A stretch of DNA of 64,000 nucleotides, taken from Microbacterium foliorum. GTDB taxonomy: Bacteria; Actinomycetota; Actinomycetes; Actinomycetales; Microbacteriaceae. The notes beneath the pieces were generated by a model. That model did not search any database and had not been told where the DNA came from. It saw only the letters and a program-made list of their open reading frames with translations. Location: positions 3,224,001-3,288,000 of the forward strand of contig NZ_CP041040.1 of NCBI RefSeq assembly GCF_006385575.1, in the 5' to 3' direction. Shown one piece after another: positions 5,471-64,000 of the stretch; the first letter of the stretch is position 1; each line of letters starts with the position of its first letter. The translations under genes were made by a program, and so were the position numbers.

Positions 5471-7075
5471 TCAGAGGGAGTCGATCGCGGCAGCCTCGAT
5501 GGCGAGGCCGGCACGGTAACGGTCGAGGTAGGCGGTGAAGCCGACGACGTCGGCAGGATCGGGGTCGGCGACCGAGAGGGATGCCGACGCGAACACGTCC
5601 CGTTCGAGGTACTCGCCGAGCGAGGCGGAATCGGCGTGCGCGAGGTATGACGCGAGCACCGCGATGCCCCAGGCGCCGCCCTCGGAGGCGAGTTCACCCA
5701 CCGTGACAGGGGCGCCGAGCGCTCCGGCGAGGAAGCGCTGCGCGACTCCTGCCGTGCGGAACATGCCCCCGTGGGCGAACATGCGGTCGAGCTCGACGCC
5801 CTCTGCGGCGAGCACCTGCATCCCCAGCGCGAGCGTGCCGAACACGCCGTACAGCTGCGAGCGCATGAAGTTGCCGAGCGTGAAGGCGCTGTCGGGCGTG
5901 CGCACGAACAGCGGTCGTCCCTCGGTGAGGCCGGCGATCGGCTCGCCCGCGAGGTGGTTGTAGGCGAGCAGTCCACCGGCATCCGCCTCTCCGTCGAGTG
6001 CCTCGCGGAAGAGGGCGTCGAAGACGGCGTCTTCGCTCAGCGGCTGACCCGCTGCCGCCGAGAAGCGGGTGAAGAGACCGGCCCAGGCGGCGAGCTCGCT
6101 CGCGCCGTTGTTGCAGTGCACCATGGCGACGGCGTCACCCGCGGGAGTCGTCACGAGGTCGAGTTCGTGATGTACCTCGGCGAGCGGGCGCTCGAGCACG
6201 ACCATCGCGAAGATGCTCGTGCCCGCCGAGACGTTGCCCGTGCGCGGAGACACCGAGTTGGTCGCCACCATGCCGGTGCCGGCGTCGCCCTCGGGCGGGC
6301 ACAGCGGGATGCCGGCCTGCAGCGCGCCTGTCGGGTCGAGGAGCCTCGCACCCTCCACCGTGAGAGATCCTGCGGCGGCGCCGGCGGGGAGGACTTTCGG
6401 GAGCAGGTCTTTGGCGGTCGTCGGAAGGCGAACTGCGGCGAGGGCGTCGTAGGCATGCAGCATCCGCTCGTCGTAGTCGCCGGTGGCCGAGTCGATCGGG
6501 AACATGCCGGAGGCGTCGCCGACGCCGAGCACCCGCTCGCCCGTGAGCTTCGCGTGGACGTACCCGGCGAGGGTCGTGACCGCGTCGAGCCGGGGCACGT
6601 GCGCCTCTCCGTCGACGACCGCCTGGTGCAGGTGCGCGATCGACCAGCGCAGCGGGATGTTCACGCCGAGCAGATCTGTCAACTCCGCCGCCGCCACACC
6701 CGTGTTGGTGTTGCGCCAGGTGCGGAACGGCACGAGCAGCTCGCCCTGAGCGTCGAACGCGAGGTAGCCGTGCATCATCGCCGAGATGCCGATCGCGCCG
6801 AAGGTCTCGGGGCGCACACCGTGGCGCTCGTGCGCGTCGGCGATGAGCTCGGCGTAGGCGGCCTGCAGGCCCGTCCAGACCTCGTCGATCGCGTAGGTCC
6901 AGAGGCCGTCTTCGAGCCGGTTCTCCCACGCGAACGATCCGGTGGCGAGCACCTCGGTGGCATCCGAACCGATCAGGCAGGCCTTGATGCGCGTAGAGCC
7001 GAGCTCGATGCCGAGGCTGGTGCGGGCGGCGAGGATGTCGTCGCGGGCCGTGGTCGCATCTGCCGTGTCGCTCAT
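5471..7075 (-). CDS. araB: Ribulokinase, FGGY family
   Basis: This 534-residue FGGY carbohydrate kinase has the N-terminal phosphate motif LGIELGSTRIKACL, the substrate-loop region SAMMHGYLAFD with FRTWRNTNTG, and a C-terminal ATPase half with GNVSAGTSIFAMV and MFAHGGMFRT. Its place between araD and araA identifies L-ribulose as the likely substrate; sequence alone would also allow a xylulokinase-like role. The start at 7075 overlaps the araD stop (ATGA). The same frame stays open upstream inside araD, but that extension shadows araD. Confidence 0.88.
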   Translation of the reverse strand: MSDTADATTARDDILAARTSLGIELGSTRIKACLIGSDATEVLATGSFAWENRLEDGLWTYAIDEVWTGLQAAYAELIADAHERHGVRPETFGAIGISAMMHGYLAFDAQGELLVPFRTWRNTNTGVAAAELTDLLGVNIPLRWSIAHLHQAVVDGEAHVPRLDAVTTLAGYVHAKLTGERVLGVGDASGMFPIDSATGDYDERMLHAYDALAAVRLPTTAKDLLPKVLPAGAAAGSLTVEGARLLDPTGALQAGIPLCPPEGDAGTGMVATNSVSPRTGNVSAGTSIFAMVVLERPLAEVHHELDLVTTPAGDAVAMVHCNNGASELAAWAGLFTRFSAAAGQPLSEDAVFDALFREALDGEADAGGLLAYNHLAGEPIAGLTEGRPLFVRTPDSAFTLGNFMRSQLYGVFGTLALGMQVLAAEGVELDRMFAHGGMFRTAGVAQRFLAGALGAPVTVGELASEGGAWGIAVLASYLAHADSASLGEYLERDVFASASLSVADPDPADVVGFTAYLDRYRAGLAIEAAAIDSL

Positions 7076-60744: not shown

Positions 60745-61383
60745 ATGCCCGACCGTCTCTCCCGCGCCCGCGCCACCGGGGTCCTCGCCGTGCTCCGGGC
60801 GCCCTCTCCTGAGCTCGCGCTCGAGGCGTCGGAGGCGATCATCCGCGGAGGCGTGACCGGCATCGAGGTCACCTTCTCGACACCGGACGCACCGGCCGTG
60901 ATCCGTGAGCTCATCGCGCGCCACGGCGACGCCGCGTACATCGGGGCCGGCACCGTCACCACCGCCGAGCAGGCCGCCCTCGCCGCCGACGCCGGCGCGG
61001 ACTTCCTGGTGAGCCCTGGAACCCTTCCCGCACTGACCCGCGCGATGCTCGACACCGATCGCGTCGTGATGACCGGCGCCATGACGCCGACCGAGGTCAT
61101 GAGCGCGCTCGAGCTCGGCGTCGACGTGGTCAAGATCTTCCCTGCGTCGCTCGGCGGCCCGTCCTACCTCGGAGCACTCCGGGGCCCGTTCCCCGACGCC
61201 CCGCTGATGCCGACCGGCGGTGTCAGCCCCGACAACCTCGCCGAGTGGTTCCGCGCCGGTGCAGTCGCAGTCGGCGCGGGCGGCGACCTCGCGAACGGCG
61301 CCTCGCTCGCCGCATCGGACTGGGCCGACATCGAGCAGCGCTCGGCGCGATTCGCCGCCGCACTCGCTGCGTCCCGCAGCTGA
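60745..61383 (+). CDS. KDPG/KHG aldolase-like protein
   Basis: The 212-residue TIM-barrel aldolase has the Schiff-base Lys in VDVVKIFPASLGG, the catalytic Glu in GIEVTFSTPDA, and LMPTGGVSPDN for phosphate. It cleaves 2-keto-3-deoxy-6-phosphogluconate or a related compound to pyruvate and an aldehyde. No edd or kdgK gene is adjacent, so the physiological substrate is open. AAGGAG precedes ATG 60745. Confidence 0.9.
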   Translation: MPDRLSRARATGVLAVLRAPSPELALEASEAIIRGGVTGIEVTFSTPDAPAVIRELIARHGDAAYIGAGTVTTAEQAALAADAGADFLVSPGTLPALTRAMLDTDRVVMTGAMTPTEVMSALELGVDVVKIFPASLGGPSYLGALRGPFPDAPLMPTGGVSPDNLAEWFRAGAVAVGAGGDLANGASLAASDWADIEQRSARFAAALAASRS

Positions 61384-61384
61384 T

Positions 61385-62137
61385 GTGATCGAACTCGCAC
61401 CCCTCGCGTGGGCCACGCTCGGCCTCGCCGCGGTCACGATCGGCATCTCGAAGACCGCGCTCCCCGGCGGCAGCATCCTGGCGATCGCCCTGTTCGCGAC
61501 CGTGCTGCCCGCGCGCACGTCGACCGCCGCGATGCTCCTGCTGCTCATCGTCGGCGACGTGTTCGCGCTCATCACCTACCGCCGTCACGCGCACTGGCCG
61601 ACGCTGCTGCGGTTGGCGCCCGCCGTGCTCGCAGGACTCCTGGCGGGCTTCGCGTTCCTCGCGATCGCGGGCGACGGCATCGTGCGGCGCGCTATCGGCG
61701 TGATCCTGCTCGCGATGATCGCCATCACCCTGTGGCGGCGGTGGCGGCAGAACCGGGCGGCGGATGCCGTGGCTCCCGCCCCCGGCGGCATCGTGCTCTC
61801 CGGCGTCTACGGCGCGCTCGGCGGCTTCACCACCATGGTCGCGAACGCCGGCGGCCCCGTCATGTCGATGTACTTTCTCGCGACGCGCACGCCCGTGCAG
61901 GTGTTCCTCGGCACCTCGGCGTGGTTCTTCGCGATCATCAACCTCGTGAAGATCCCGTTCCTCGCAGGGCTCGGCCTGTTCGACGGACACGTGCTGCTGA
62001 TGGATGCCGTGCTGGCGCCCCTCGTCGTGCTCGGCGCGCTCGGCGGCATCCGCCTGGCGAAGCGCATGAACCAGGTGCTGTTCGACCGCATCGTGATCGC
62101 CCTGACGATCGCCGGCGCCGTCTACCTGCTCTTCTGA
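61385..62137 (+). CDS. TSUP family (TauE/SafE) membrane permease
   Basis: The 250-residue protein has about eight helices with the internal repeat of TauE/SafE transporters (GISKTALPGGSILAIALFATVLPAR and the related GALGGFTTMVANAGGPVMSMYFL). TSUP proteins move sulfite, sulfoacetate or other organic anions. GTG 61385 begins one base after the aldolase stop, so the two are likely co-transcribed; no ATG fits in frame. Confidence 0.85.
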   Translation: MIELAPLAWATLGLAAVTIGISKTALPGGSILAIALFATVLPARTSTAAMLLLLIVGDVFALITYRRHAHWPTLLRLAPAVLAGLLAGFAFLAIAGDGIVRRAIGVILLAMIAITLWRRWRQNRAADAVAPAPGGIVLSGVYGALGGFTTMVANAGGPVMSMYFLATRTPVQVFLGTSAWFFAIINLVKIPFLAGLGLFDGHVLLMDAVLAPLVVLGALGGIRLAKRMNQVLFDRIVIALTIAGAVYLLF

Positions 62138-62159
62138 CTCGCGCCCGACTGAAGCGCGA

Positions 62160-62188
62160 TTGCACCGAGACTACACAACGCATAGAAT
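62160..62188 (+). promoter_or_regulatory. Promoter of the small structured RNA
   Basis: TTGCAC (62160-62165) and TAGAAT (62183-62188) are spaced by exactly 17 bp. It lies 22 bp after the TSUP gene stop and gives a predicted transcription start near 62195. Confidence 0.7.
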
Positions 62189-62194
62189 CATGTT

Positions 62195-62273
62195 CAAGAA
62201 GGTGAGGACAAGGTCCCTCATCATGTGTTGAAAGAGTCTGTGGGACGCAAGCGCCCTCAGGCTCTTTCTTTTT
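62195..62273 (+). ncRNA. Small structured RNA beside an Abi-family gene, candidate abiF-type RNA
   Basis: The ~79-nt region has two strong hairpins. The first (about 62201-62222) is a 9-bp stem with one bulge around loop AAG (GGUGAGGAC/GUCCCUCAUC). The second (62231-62267) is a ~15-bp stem with one mismatch and one bulge around loop CAAG, followed by CUUUUU, a good intrinsic terminator. UUCAA (62193-62197) can pair with UUGAA (62228-62232) to enclose hairpin 1. A promoter with 17-bp spacing precedes it and no reading frame is seen. The U-tract overlaps the stop codon of the convergent Abi gene. An abiF RNA motif near abiF-like genes has been described; identity is inferred. Confidence 0.6.
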
Positions 62274-63009
62274 ACACGTCAGGACGGTCTCGAAGGATCA
62301 CCGGTACACGGTTGGCCCCGGACACCCAGTTGGCGACGTCACGATCGATGCTCCGGACGAGCGCGAGCGCCTCCTGAATGCGATCAGCGACGTCTACGTC
62401 GAGCAACGGCTCCATGTGCGACACGCGGTTCCGCAACAGGTGAAGGTGCGCAACTCGCCAGAAGGTGATCCGACCGTCAGCGTCGGCCTCGTTGGGAAAT
62501 GCCGCCTCAAGGCAATCCGTCCACAGGAACTCGCGGTTCGCGTTCACTGTGCTGTTGCTCGGATCGGCTGCGCCCGGTAGGTGGTTCGGCAGGAGTTCCT
62601 TCCACAGCCCAAACGTGATGTGCGCAAGAACATCGTCGTGCGTGACTGGCAGTCCGTGGCGTCGATGACCTGCAGGTCTCCGATCCGCCGCTTTCTGCGC
62701 CCTCTCTAGCGCTTCCTTGCGTTTGCCCGCCGACAAGCTTCGCAGGGGCGAAGCAGGCTCAGCGAGCAGCCAACTCCGAGTGCCGTTCGTCTGGTTGTTG
62801 TTCCAGCCTTGAAGTTCCCGGTCAATCGTGTTGCGCAGGACTACCTCGGCGATACCGAGAACAGCCTGCACTGCTGCCGTCAATTCGGTGTGCCACCTGT
62901 ACAGGGAGAGCGCACGCTTCTCATTGTGGTGGGCAGCCACGAGATACGGCTCCATGCGCGAGCGATGCAAGGCATCGAGGATTCTGGTGCGGGGTTGAGG
63001 TGCGGGCAC
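62272..63009 (-). CDS. Abi family HEPN-domain protein (AbiD/AbiF-like)
   Basis: The 245-residue protein fits the Abi-like family: ALSLYRWHTELTAAV and EVVLRNTIDREL in the N-terminal half, then LLRNRVSHMEPLL containing the HEPN RNase motif R193-x4-H198. HEPN proteins of this kind cut RNA when released from control during phage infection. GTG 63009 was chosen because GGGAGG lies five bases upstream; an in-frame extension to 63099 lacks such a site. It converges with the small RNA at 62195 and has no protein partner gene. RNase activity is inferred. Confidence 0.85.
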   Translation of the reverse strand: MPAPQPRTRILDALHRSRMEPYLVAAHHNEKRALSLYRWHTELTAAVQAVLGIAEVVLRNTIDRELQGWNNNQTNGTRSWLLAEPASPLRSLSAGKRKEALERAQKAADRRPAGHRRHGLPVTHDDVLAHITFGLWKELLPNHLPGAADPSNSTVNANREFLWTDCLEAAFPNEADADGRITFWRVAHLHLLRNRVSHMEPLLDVDVADRIQEALALVRSIDRDVANWVSGANRVPVILRDRPDV

Positions 63010-63106
63010 AGATTCCTCCCGTTGATGGCCGCGCCTGCTGCGCTGAGGCGACGGTATCAGCAGCCACCCGCATTCCCCTCGGGCCGCCGCAACCCGCACC
63101 CAAGCC

Positions 63107-63937
63107 TCAGTCGAGGAAGATGTCCGGGAACAGCCGGTCGTCGGGAGTTCCGGGCACAGCGGCGTACTTCGAGAAGTCGGTGACGCCGTCGGCTTCGAGC
63201 ACGTCCTCGACGATCAGCGTCTGGCCGGTGTACTCGGCCGCCGGCTTGAGCAGCACCGCGTAAGCGGCGTCGGCATAGATGTCGGGTGTGCGGCTCGCGG
63301 CCATGACCTTGTCGCCGCCGAGCAGGTTCTGCACCGCGGCGGTCGCGATCGTCGTGCGCGGCCAGAGGGCGTTCGCGGCGATGCCGTCGCGGGCGAACTC
63401 CGCCGCGAGACCGAGCGTGACCATCGTCATGCCGAACTTCGCGAGGGTGTATCCGGTGTGCGCACCGAGCCACTTCGGCGTGGGGTTCAGGGGCGGCGAC
63501 AGCGACAGGATGTGCGGGTTCTCGGCGTCCTTGAGAATCGGCACGGCTGCGCGCGACAGCATGAAGGTTCCCCGCACGTTCACATCCTGCATGAGGTCGT
63601 ACTTCTTCGCACCGAGGTCGAGCGAGCGCGACAGGTCGATGACGCTGGCGTTGTTGATGACGATGTCGATGCCGCCGAACTCGCCCTGCGTCTTCATCAC
63701 GGCCTCGGTGATGTCGTCGTCGTCGCGCACGTCGCCCACGATCGGCAGCGCCTGGCCGCCGGCGGCCCTGATCTGCTCGGCCGCCGAGTGCACCGTGCCC
63801 TCGAGCTTCGGATGCGGGGTGTCGGTCTTCGCGAGCATCGCGATGTTCGCGCCGTCAGCCGCGGCGCGCAACGCGATCGCGAGGCCGATGCCGCGGCTTC
63901 CGCCCGACATGAGGATGGTCTTTCCTGCCAGTGACAT
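63107..63937 (-). CDS. SDR family oxidoreductase, HSDL2-like
   Basis: This 276-residue short-chain dehydrogenase has the TGxxxGxG-type loop MSGGSRGIG, NNAS, and YxxxK at YTLAKFG. The segment SLSPPLNPTPKWLGAHTGYTLAKFGMT is characteristic of hydroxysteroid dehydrogenase-like protein 2. In that family Ser of the catalytic site is in LSLSPP. It probably acts on acyl or branched lipid substrates and may be co-transcribed with the gene to its right. Confidence 0.9.
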   Translation of the reverse strand: MSLAGKTILMSGGSRGIGLAIALRAAADGANIAMLAKTDTPHPKLEGTVHSAAEQIRAAGGQALPIVGDVRDDDDITEAVMKTQGEFGGIDIVINNASVIDLSRSLDLGAKKYDLMQDVNVRGTFMLSRAAVPILKDAENPHILSLSPPLNPTPKWLGAHTGYTLAKFGMTMVTLGLAAEFARDGIAANALWPRTTIATAAVQNLLGGDKVMAASRTPDIYADAAYAVLLKPAAEYTGQTLIVEDVLEADGVTDFSKYAAVPGTPDDRLFPDIFLD

Positions 63938-63966
63938 GGATTCTCCTTGGAGCGTGGGGCTGCGGG

Positions 63967-64000
63967 TTACTTCGGCGCCATGCGAATGGCACCGTCGAGA
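63967..64000 (-). CDS. C-terminal end of a type-2 3-hydroxyacyl-CoA dehydrogenase, cut by window
   Basis: Ten codons and a stop read LDGAIRMAPK, nearly the same as the end of HSD17B10/type II 3-hydroxyacyl-CoA dehydrogenases (RLDGAIRMxP). The rest lies right of the window. The stop is 29 bp before the HSDL2-like gene start on the same strand, so the two genes probably form an operon for branched-chain or acyl-CoA breakdown. Confidence 0.7.
   Translation of the reverse strand, partial: LDGAIRMAPK

Follow-up and report, generated by a model that had tools for sequence, protein, structure and literature searches.

The AbiF protein of C. difficile is toxic and is neutralised in cis and in trans by the RNA RCd22, which acts by binding and requires its stems; RCd22 is located upstream of abiF, on the strand of the gene, and its transcription continues into abiF (PMC12373285, accessible part of the article). 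AbiFr is described as the antitoxin of PbAbiF in the accessible part of a review (PMC12737573). According to the available portions of two further articles, AbiD/F proteins form one clade with the HEPN domains of Cas13an (PMC12165695), and PD-T4-5 is a distant AbiF/D relative with a toxin-antitoxin (TA)-like Abi defence (PMC9519451). Here we analyse a 64,000-nucleotide stretch of the Microbacterium foliorum genome (contig NZ_CP041040.1, positions 3,224,001 to 3,288,000 of the forward strand), hereafter the window, in which an AbiF-like HEPN protein is encoded opposite a structured RNA of ~77 nt. We consider it probable that the two form an RNA-toxin module, in which an AbiF-type HEPN RNase would be restrained in trans by the opposite-strand RNA. 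As judged by sequence comparison, the RNA has a conserved structure with promoter and terminator, is linked to one Abi clade and is present or absent jointly with Abi at the window site; it also changes side without changing strand and persists after Abi decay.

RCd22 and the window RNA are both neighbouring hairpin RNAs with their own promoter and terminator (RCd22 being ~100-130 nt long), and carriage by phages and plasmids is shared by AbiFCd-RCd22 and the family of the window pair. On the other hand, RCd22 consists of two copies of one motif, whereas hairpins 1 and 2 of the window RNA differ, and RCd22 lies on the strand of its gene while the RNA of the window family lies on the opposite one, in a convergent or divergent arrangement (for RCd22, as given in the accessible part of its description). 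The first-pass annotation, made from the letters alone, had asked for a covariance search with the abiF RNA of Rfam (RF03085), and this gave no match in the window at the gathering threshold, none in 61800-63400 at E 10 and none in seven related loci at E 10. Membership in Rfam abiF was therefore rejected; of all Rfam families, McaS scored highest at this place, with 18.8 bits against a cut-off of 42. The novelty relative to known AbiF loci is thus twofold: an RNA family without a match in Rfam and the opposite-strand layout. A literature search of titles and abstract openings, covering few subscription papers, found no opposite-strand RNA beside actinobacterial AbiF relatives.

The protein, recognised from its open reading frame, alignment, profile and structural model, comprises 245 residues and occupies 62272..63009 on the - strand, as first annotated, with a GTG start at 63009 and a TAA stop at 62272-62274. 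The HEPN RNase motif RNRVSH had also been called correctly: R193, N194, R195 and H198 are invariant in 26 aligned homologs, with V196 and S197 varying. The protein therefore carries the HEPN active-site motif Rx4-6H, here as Rx4H (R193-H198), and shares the HEPN fold and the R-x4-H spacing with AbiF-AbiFr/PbAbiF-ncRNA (PDB 8vz6) and AbiFCd-RCd22, whose residues are R202/H207 and R210/H215. Indeed, the best match of its predicted structure is PbAbiF-ncRNA, a solved AbiF fold. The PADLOC profile PDLC04038, for the E. coli anti-phage gene PD-T4-5, matches the window protein with an E value of 2.5e-15, and all 26 aligned proteins match this model; in the available part of its description, PD-T4-5 is presented without mention of a partner RNA. 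No Pfam family was found for the window protein up to E 1, Abi_2 (PF07751) included, and Abi_2 matches occur in two of the 26 aligned relatives and nowhere in the window's own genome. A sequence-based profile search of solved structures yielded designed repeat proteins, which were regarded as chance hits. An AbiF-type ribonuclease is suggested by the fold, the Rx4H motif and the match to the PD-T4-5 profile. The rearranged HEPN fold is a likeness to Cas13 and Cas13an, which the accessible text of PMC12165695 ties to AbiD/F, but the window protein has one HEPN motif, and its 959-bp cassette can hold nothing beyond the RNA and Abi and includes no CRISPR array.

The RNA extends over 62197..62273 (+), as delimited by folding, alignment and the covariance model R1. 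The region 62190-62275 (+) folds with -34.7 kcal/mol (z -3.84), a stability reached by 0 of 200 shuffles, whereas its reverse strand folds less well (z -2.75; 2 of 200 shuffles as stable). Two hairpins are formed, as the first-pass annotation had proposed: hairpin 1 (62201..62222, +) has seven pairs, 62201-62207 with 62216-62222, around the loop ACAAGGUC, and hairpin 2 (62230..62268, +) is a terminator stem. It is followed by a U-tract (62269..62273, +) whose last two bases fall within the Abi stop codon, an overlap again as annotated. To assess conservation, 24 of 31 matches were aligned without structure, leaving out L001, L003, L004, L039 and L071-L073, which are copies, a near-copy and L004. 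RNAalifold recovered the same two hairpins from the 24 RNAs, with compensatory changes on both sides in 18 of 23 pairs. Standard pairs make up 98.9% in this alignment against 41-55% in slid controls, and the covariation score is 0.610, compared with 0.309 in shuffles and at most 0.191 in slid controls. The excess of pair types is modest (39 vs 33.9 in shuffles; 6 of 500 shuffles reach 39); since the aligned RNAs are related by descent, the shuffle control alone does not amount to a probability. The lack of a conserved RNA or of compensatory changes beside homologous genes had been named beforehand as evidence against an RNA partner, and a conserved, covarying RNA is what was found. The A, C, G, U and C of the hairpin 1 loop are invariant in all 24 RNAs, as are several positions of hairpin 2, and invariant loop nucleotides would be expected of a protein-binding RNA. 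R1 was built from these 24 RNAs, the window RNA being one of the rows, and matches the window at 62197-62271 with 91.5 bits.

The promoter assigned to the RNA (62160..62188, +) consists of TTGCAC at 62160-62165, a 17-base spacer and TAGAAT at 62183-62188. Two results weigh against this assignment: a simple consensus scan of 61000-64000 found neither promoter nor terminator, and TTGCAC agrees with TTGACA at only three of six positions. Since the scan missed it, the promoter claim rests on conservation across relatives, for which 36 of 40 RNA-Abi pairs were used (L039, L016, L008 and L070 omitted; the 36 include near-copies). In 33 of them a TANNNT begins 10-17 bases upstream of the RNA (mean 4.6 and at most 14 in 2000 base shuffles), and in 28 a TTG stands 16-19 bases upstream of TANNNT (shuffles: mean 0.4, maximum 3). 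The boxes called at first are therefore in place and conserved. At the other end, 33 of 36 relatives have at least five T within some eight bases of the RNA tail. The RNA occurs in varied surroundings: next to TSUP in the window, close to groEL, within a phage tail cluster and on plasmids. It is therefore an independent unit rather than the product of read-through from TSUP.

Homologs of Abi were collected at 40 loci on genome contigs and three on viral contigs. Among same-family genomes, 39 of 398 had an Abi match and 30 loci were fetched; 259 plasmid records had one, of which the best 30 were considered and four fetched. Wherever Abi was at least 50% identical to that of the window, the R1 RNA was present: at 21/21 genome-contig, 3/3 viral and 3/3 same-family loci, and at 2/2 plasmid loci among the matches listed. 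These 29 of 29 loci reduce to 24 distinct ones besides the window once copies are removed (L001 equals the window, L003 equals L041, and L071-L073 equal L033). A recheck of 193 loci, many of them repeats and some fetched via the RNA itself, gave 63 with at least 50% identity over at least 60 residues. Only L173 lacked the RNA; it holds the gene of L068 with shorter flanks, and in L068 the RNA is 1.8 kb away, while in the other distinct loci it is near the gene. Below 50% identity, eight of 19 genome-contig loci have the RNA (E <1e-3), L070 has it weakly and ten are without it. Searching 396 genomes of the phylum with R1, under stricter filters that lose weak matches, gave only the window's own copy above 28 bits; another sample of 396 drawn in the same way held 14 genomes with some Abi relative, and at the 15 loci fetched from it, which belong to other Abi clades, R1 found nothing convincing besides the window's own copy. 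By blastn, two of 72,556 plasmid records match the RNA, both beside Abi. By such comparisons, the RNA is tied to one Abi clade, which it accompanies in many Actinobacteria. The RNA partner proposed in the first-pass annotation is thus supported by covariation, by this linkage and by the protein model matching PbAbiF-ncRNA.

Twenty-nine whole genomes reached from the loci contained two extra RNAs, an orphan near groEL (L132) and one beside a second, 39% identical Abi in Mycetocola lacteus (G851:C10; the position of this Abi was taken from G210:C10, assumed to be the same genome). The hits L133-L135 from these genomes were judged to be chance, and a broader function for the RNA beyond Abi was likewise set aside, as the 14 weaker phylum hits, without Abi in the fetched flanks, were treated as chance. 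A DNA pattern of hairpin 1 had no match in viral contigs, but it was too strict even for L071-L073. L033 is an actinobacterial-type locus under a Bacillota name (record titled Tissierella, FQLW01000005); around the pair it is identical to three IMG/VR contigs, and in the Abi tree it lies near Actinotignum and Propionimicrobium. In L068 (615-2395), ~1.8 kb separate a truncated Abi from the RNA, and the stretch after Abi, which may be an insertion element, resembles the upstream regions of L191 and L192.

In the window, a TSUP gene adjoins the cassette on one side and an SDR gene on the other. Among 58 other genomes of the genus, 12 have these two flanking genes adjacent, 0-181 bases apart, and neither RNA nor Abi was found at those 12 sites among the matches listed. 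Break points read at two of them fall at window positions 62144-62146 and 63106-63107, so that a unit of ~959 bases with promoter, RNA and Abi (62147..63105, strand not assigned) came or went together. What is missing in these congeners is only the RNA and Abi, which bears out the earlier remark that there is no protein antitoxin. The G+C content of the cassette is 0.58-0.64, compared with 0.67-0.74 in the left and 0.66-0.70 in the right flank. On the viral contig L071 (4929-5793), the pair stands between tape-measure and tail protein genes, the RNA being co-directional with the tail genes and Abi opposed, like a phage-borne extra gene.

Corynebacterium documents the decay of such pairs. At R1 scores of at least 40 bits, 25 RNAs were found in 23 of 151 genomes: 14 next to a largely complete Abi (interrupted by stops or frame breaks in G955, G864 and G856), four beside Abi remnants (L148, L149, L150 and L152, of which L152 carries another, diverged Abi farther along) and seven without Abi within 1.5 kb (L119, L138, L140, L141, L146, L151 and L156; in L119 a partial Abi lies 1.8 kb away). 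The 12 top-scoring Abi genes all have the RNA, at a distance of 1.8 kb in G867; the next 18 fetched, 31-38% identical to that of the window, had no RNA of the R1 family. A clean case is the orphan of L132 (2812-2886, -; same-family genome G098), which scores 74.8 bits just after groEL with no Abi in 6 kb. In Mycetocola lacteus (L041), where Abi lies between groEL and the RNA, the flanks of Abi are 93-96% identical to L132, and in L132 ~790 bases including Abi are replaced by ~15, with the RNA kept and its U-tract gone. RNAs without the toxin, but no close toxin without the RNA, are the pattern to be expected of an antidote, though not proof of one. As in type III TA systems, the RNA is linked to the toxin gene and able to outlive it, and the proposed combination of an RNase toxin with a structured RNA antitoxin resembles the ToxIN kind. 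In ToxIN systems the antitoxin is a series of tandem repeats immediately upstream of the toxin gene and on its strand, in contrast to the single RNA on the other strand in the window family (two in L042).

In the two-part module, the ~77-nt RNA would be transcribed from its own promoter on the strand opposite Abi and fold into two hairpins. It would then bind the HEPN protein in trans and hold the RNase in check, like AbiFr and RCd22; by this analogy, restraint of the HEPN RNase through RNA binding is the most likely role. Either phage infection or cassette loss would release the enzyme, which would then cleave RNA and halt growth, and toxicity and a phage trigger may accordingly be presumed for the window module. 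Alternatively, the RNA could be an activating cofactor or a sensor and not a plain antitoxin, being needed for cutting or setting the nuclease free upon a phage trigger, in a primitive pre-Cas13 RNA-dependent nuclease. The common clade of AbiD/F and the Cas13an HEPN domains (accessible part of PMC12165695) speaks for this, as does the conservation of hairpin 1 and the loops beyond the needs of termination. However, the characterised relatives use their RNA as an inhibitor, as far as their accessible descriptions go, and an inhibitor better explains why RNAs are kept next to Abi remnants or by themselves, while no Abi of at least 50% identity was found that lacks the RNA in its genome region; we regard an activator or sensor as unlikely.

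The position of the RNA relative to Abi bears on a second alternative, partly suggested by the first-pass annotation, namely that the RNA acts in cis as a type I-like brake, through antisense or transcription collision at the 3' end of the Abi mRNA, and does not bind the protein. Forty pairs were compared, drawn from 52 R1 rows after omission of copies of one locus, matches antisense to the RNA, L044:8410 and L007 (a weak upstream-divergent match, like L008). RNA and Abi are on opposite strands in 39 of them, window included, which departs from the AbiF-AbiFr layout with its ncRNA upstream on the same strand. In favour of a brake, 23 of these 39 RNAs converge on Abi from downstream, most of them no more than 25 bases from the Abi match, and in the window the U-tract reaches into the stop codon. 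The other 16, among them the weak matches L008 and L070, are upstream and divergent without overlapping the matched gene, so that, compared by position, the overlap and complementarity that define a type I RNA are missing there. Such divergent RNAs occur in Prescottella, Rhodococcus and Arthrobacter-type loci, a group (support 100) nested in a mostly convergent clade of the Abi tree; on this 56-row tree, a quick one with 24 of 53 inner branches weakly supported, there are at least three changes of side. By these comparisons the RNA moves relative to the gene and stays near it, but hardly ever switches strand. A mobile side with a near-constant strand makes 3' antisense hard to reconcile as the conserved function, whereas a trans-acting product fits. 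Stems and loop nucleotides are moreover conserved, and RNAs persist without Abi. Given the varying side, the covariation and the RNA's own conserved promoter, the antisense-only reading was rejected and appears quite improbable, although convergence may additionally dampen Abi expression locally in the window's clade. Finally, convergent genes often share one terminator, and hairpin 2 with its U-tract is one, but the reading that the hairpins are nothing more was also rejected and is hardly credible, since hairpin 1 covaries, hairpin 1, linker and promoter are conserved at nearly fixed spacing, and the divergent upstream RNAs terminate nothing of Abi.

Two loci show unusual arrangements. L016 (1323-1386, +; 26 bits) is the only same-strand upstream pair, as in known abiF loci, and its hairpin GTGGACCAGATCCCTC is like hairpin 1. 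In Corynebacterium lowii (L042), two tandem RNA copies (5712-5789 and 5886-5962, -), each with promoter-like boxes, lie downstream of one Abi; such a duplication could be an intermediate in the RNA's move from one side to the other.

Cas13 has been proposed to derive from RNA-partnered AbiF-type HEPN proteins, to which the window pair adds a second RNA family, with a different layout, strong covariation, invariant loop nucleotides and tractable actinobacterial hosts. Its natural variants (convergent, divergent, tandem and RNA alone) allow trans neutralisation to be separated from cis control, and a hidden family of RNA-controlled toxins becomes testable. Some single-gene 'Abi' or PD-T4-5 defence genes are predicted to be two-part RNA-protein modules. 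On a broader scale, it is conceivable, if still somewhat doubtful, that actinobacterial AbiF-like HEPN proteins are a large unrecognised class of RNA-paired nucleases, each clade with its own unrelated RNA, nearly always on the opposite strand, and with partners swapped, moved and kept as stand-alone antidotes. If so, the source pool of RNA-dependent HEPN immunity would be far more varied than the known abiF RNA.

Two further RNA families are leads rather than claims; if they are confirmed, opposite-strand RNA pairing would be a general habit of these Abi proteins. Family II is a terminator-ended single-hairpin RNA of ~50-60 nt, CCCCGGAACCGTCCCTG...CACACGGCCGGGGTTT, upstream and on the opposite strand of distant Abi relatives (L015, L017, L019-L022, L026-L028, L096, L097, L099 and L102), with TTGACA-type promoters in several. 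No Rfam match was found at its RNA places in the loci searched, and an alignment of 13 of the 18 extracted places shows weak covariation (4 of 11 pairs). Family III, from Corynebacterium (L178-L183, L185 and L186), combines a GAGCGTCGATGTAGGTCGGCGCAC hairpin with a terminator hairpin, divergent, upstream and on the opposite strand of another Abi clade; eight sequences from 13 loci tried show covariation in 5 of 20 pairs. In Mycobacterium and Mycolicibacterium (L056-L061, L066 and L069), Abi proteins of 37-39% identity stand without the R1 RNA and have another conserved upstream hairpin, GAAGCCCCCCTC...GAGGGAGGCTTC.
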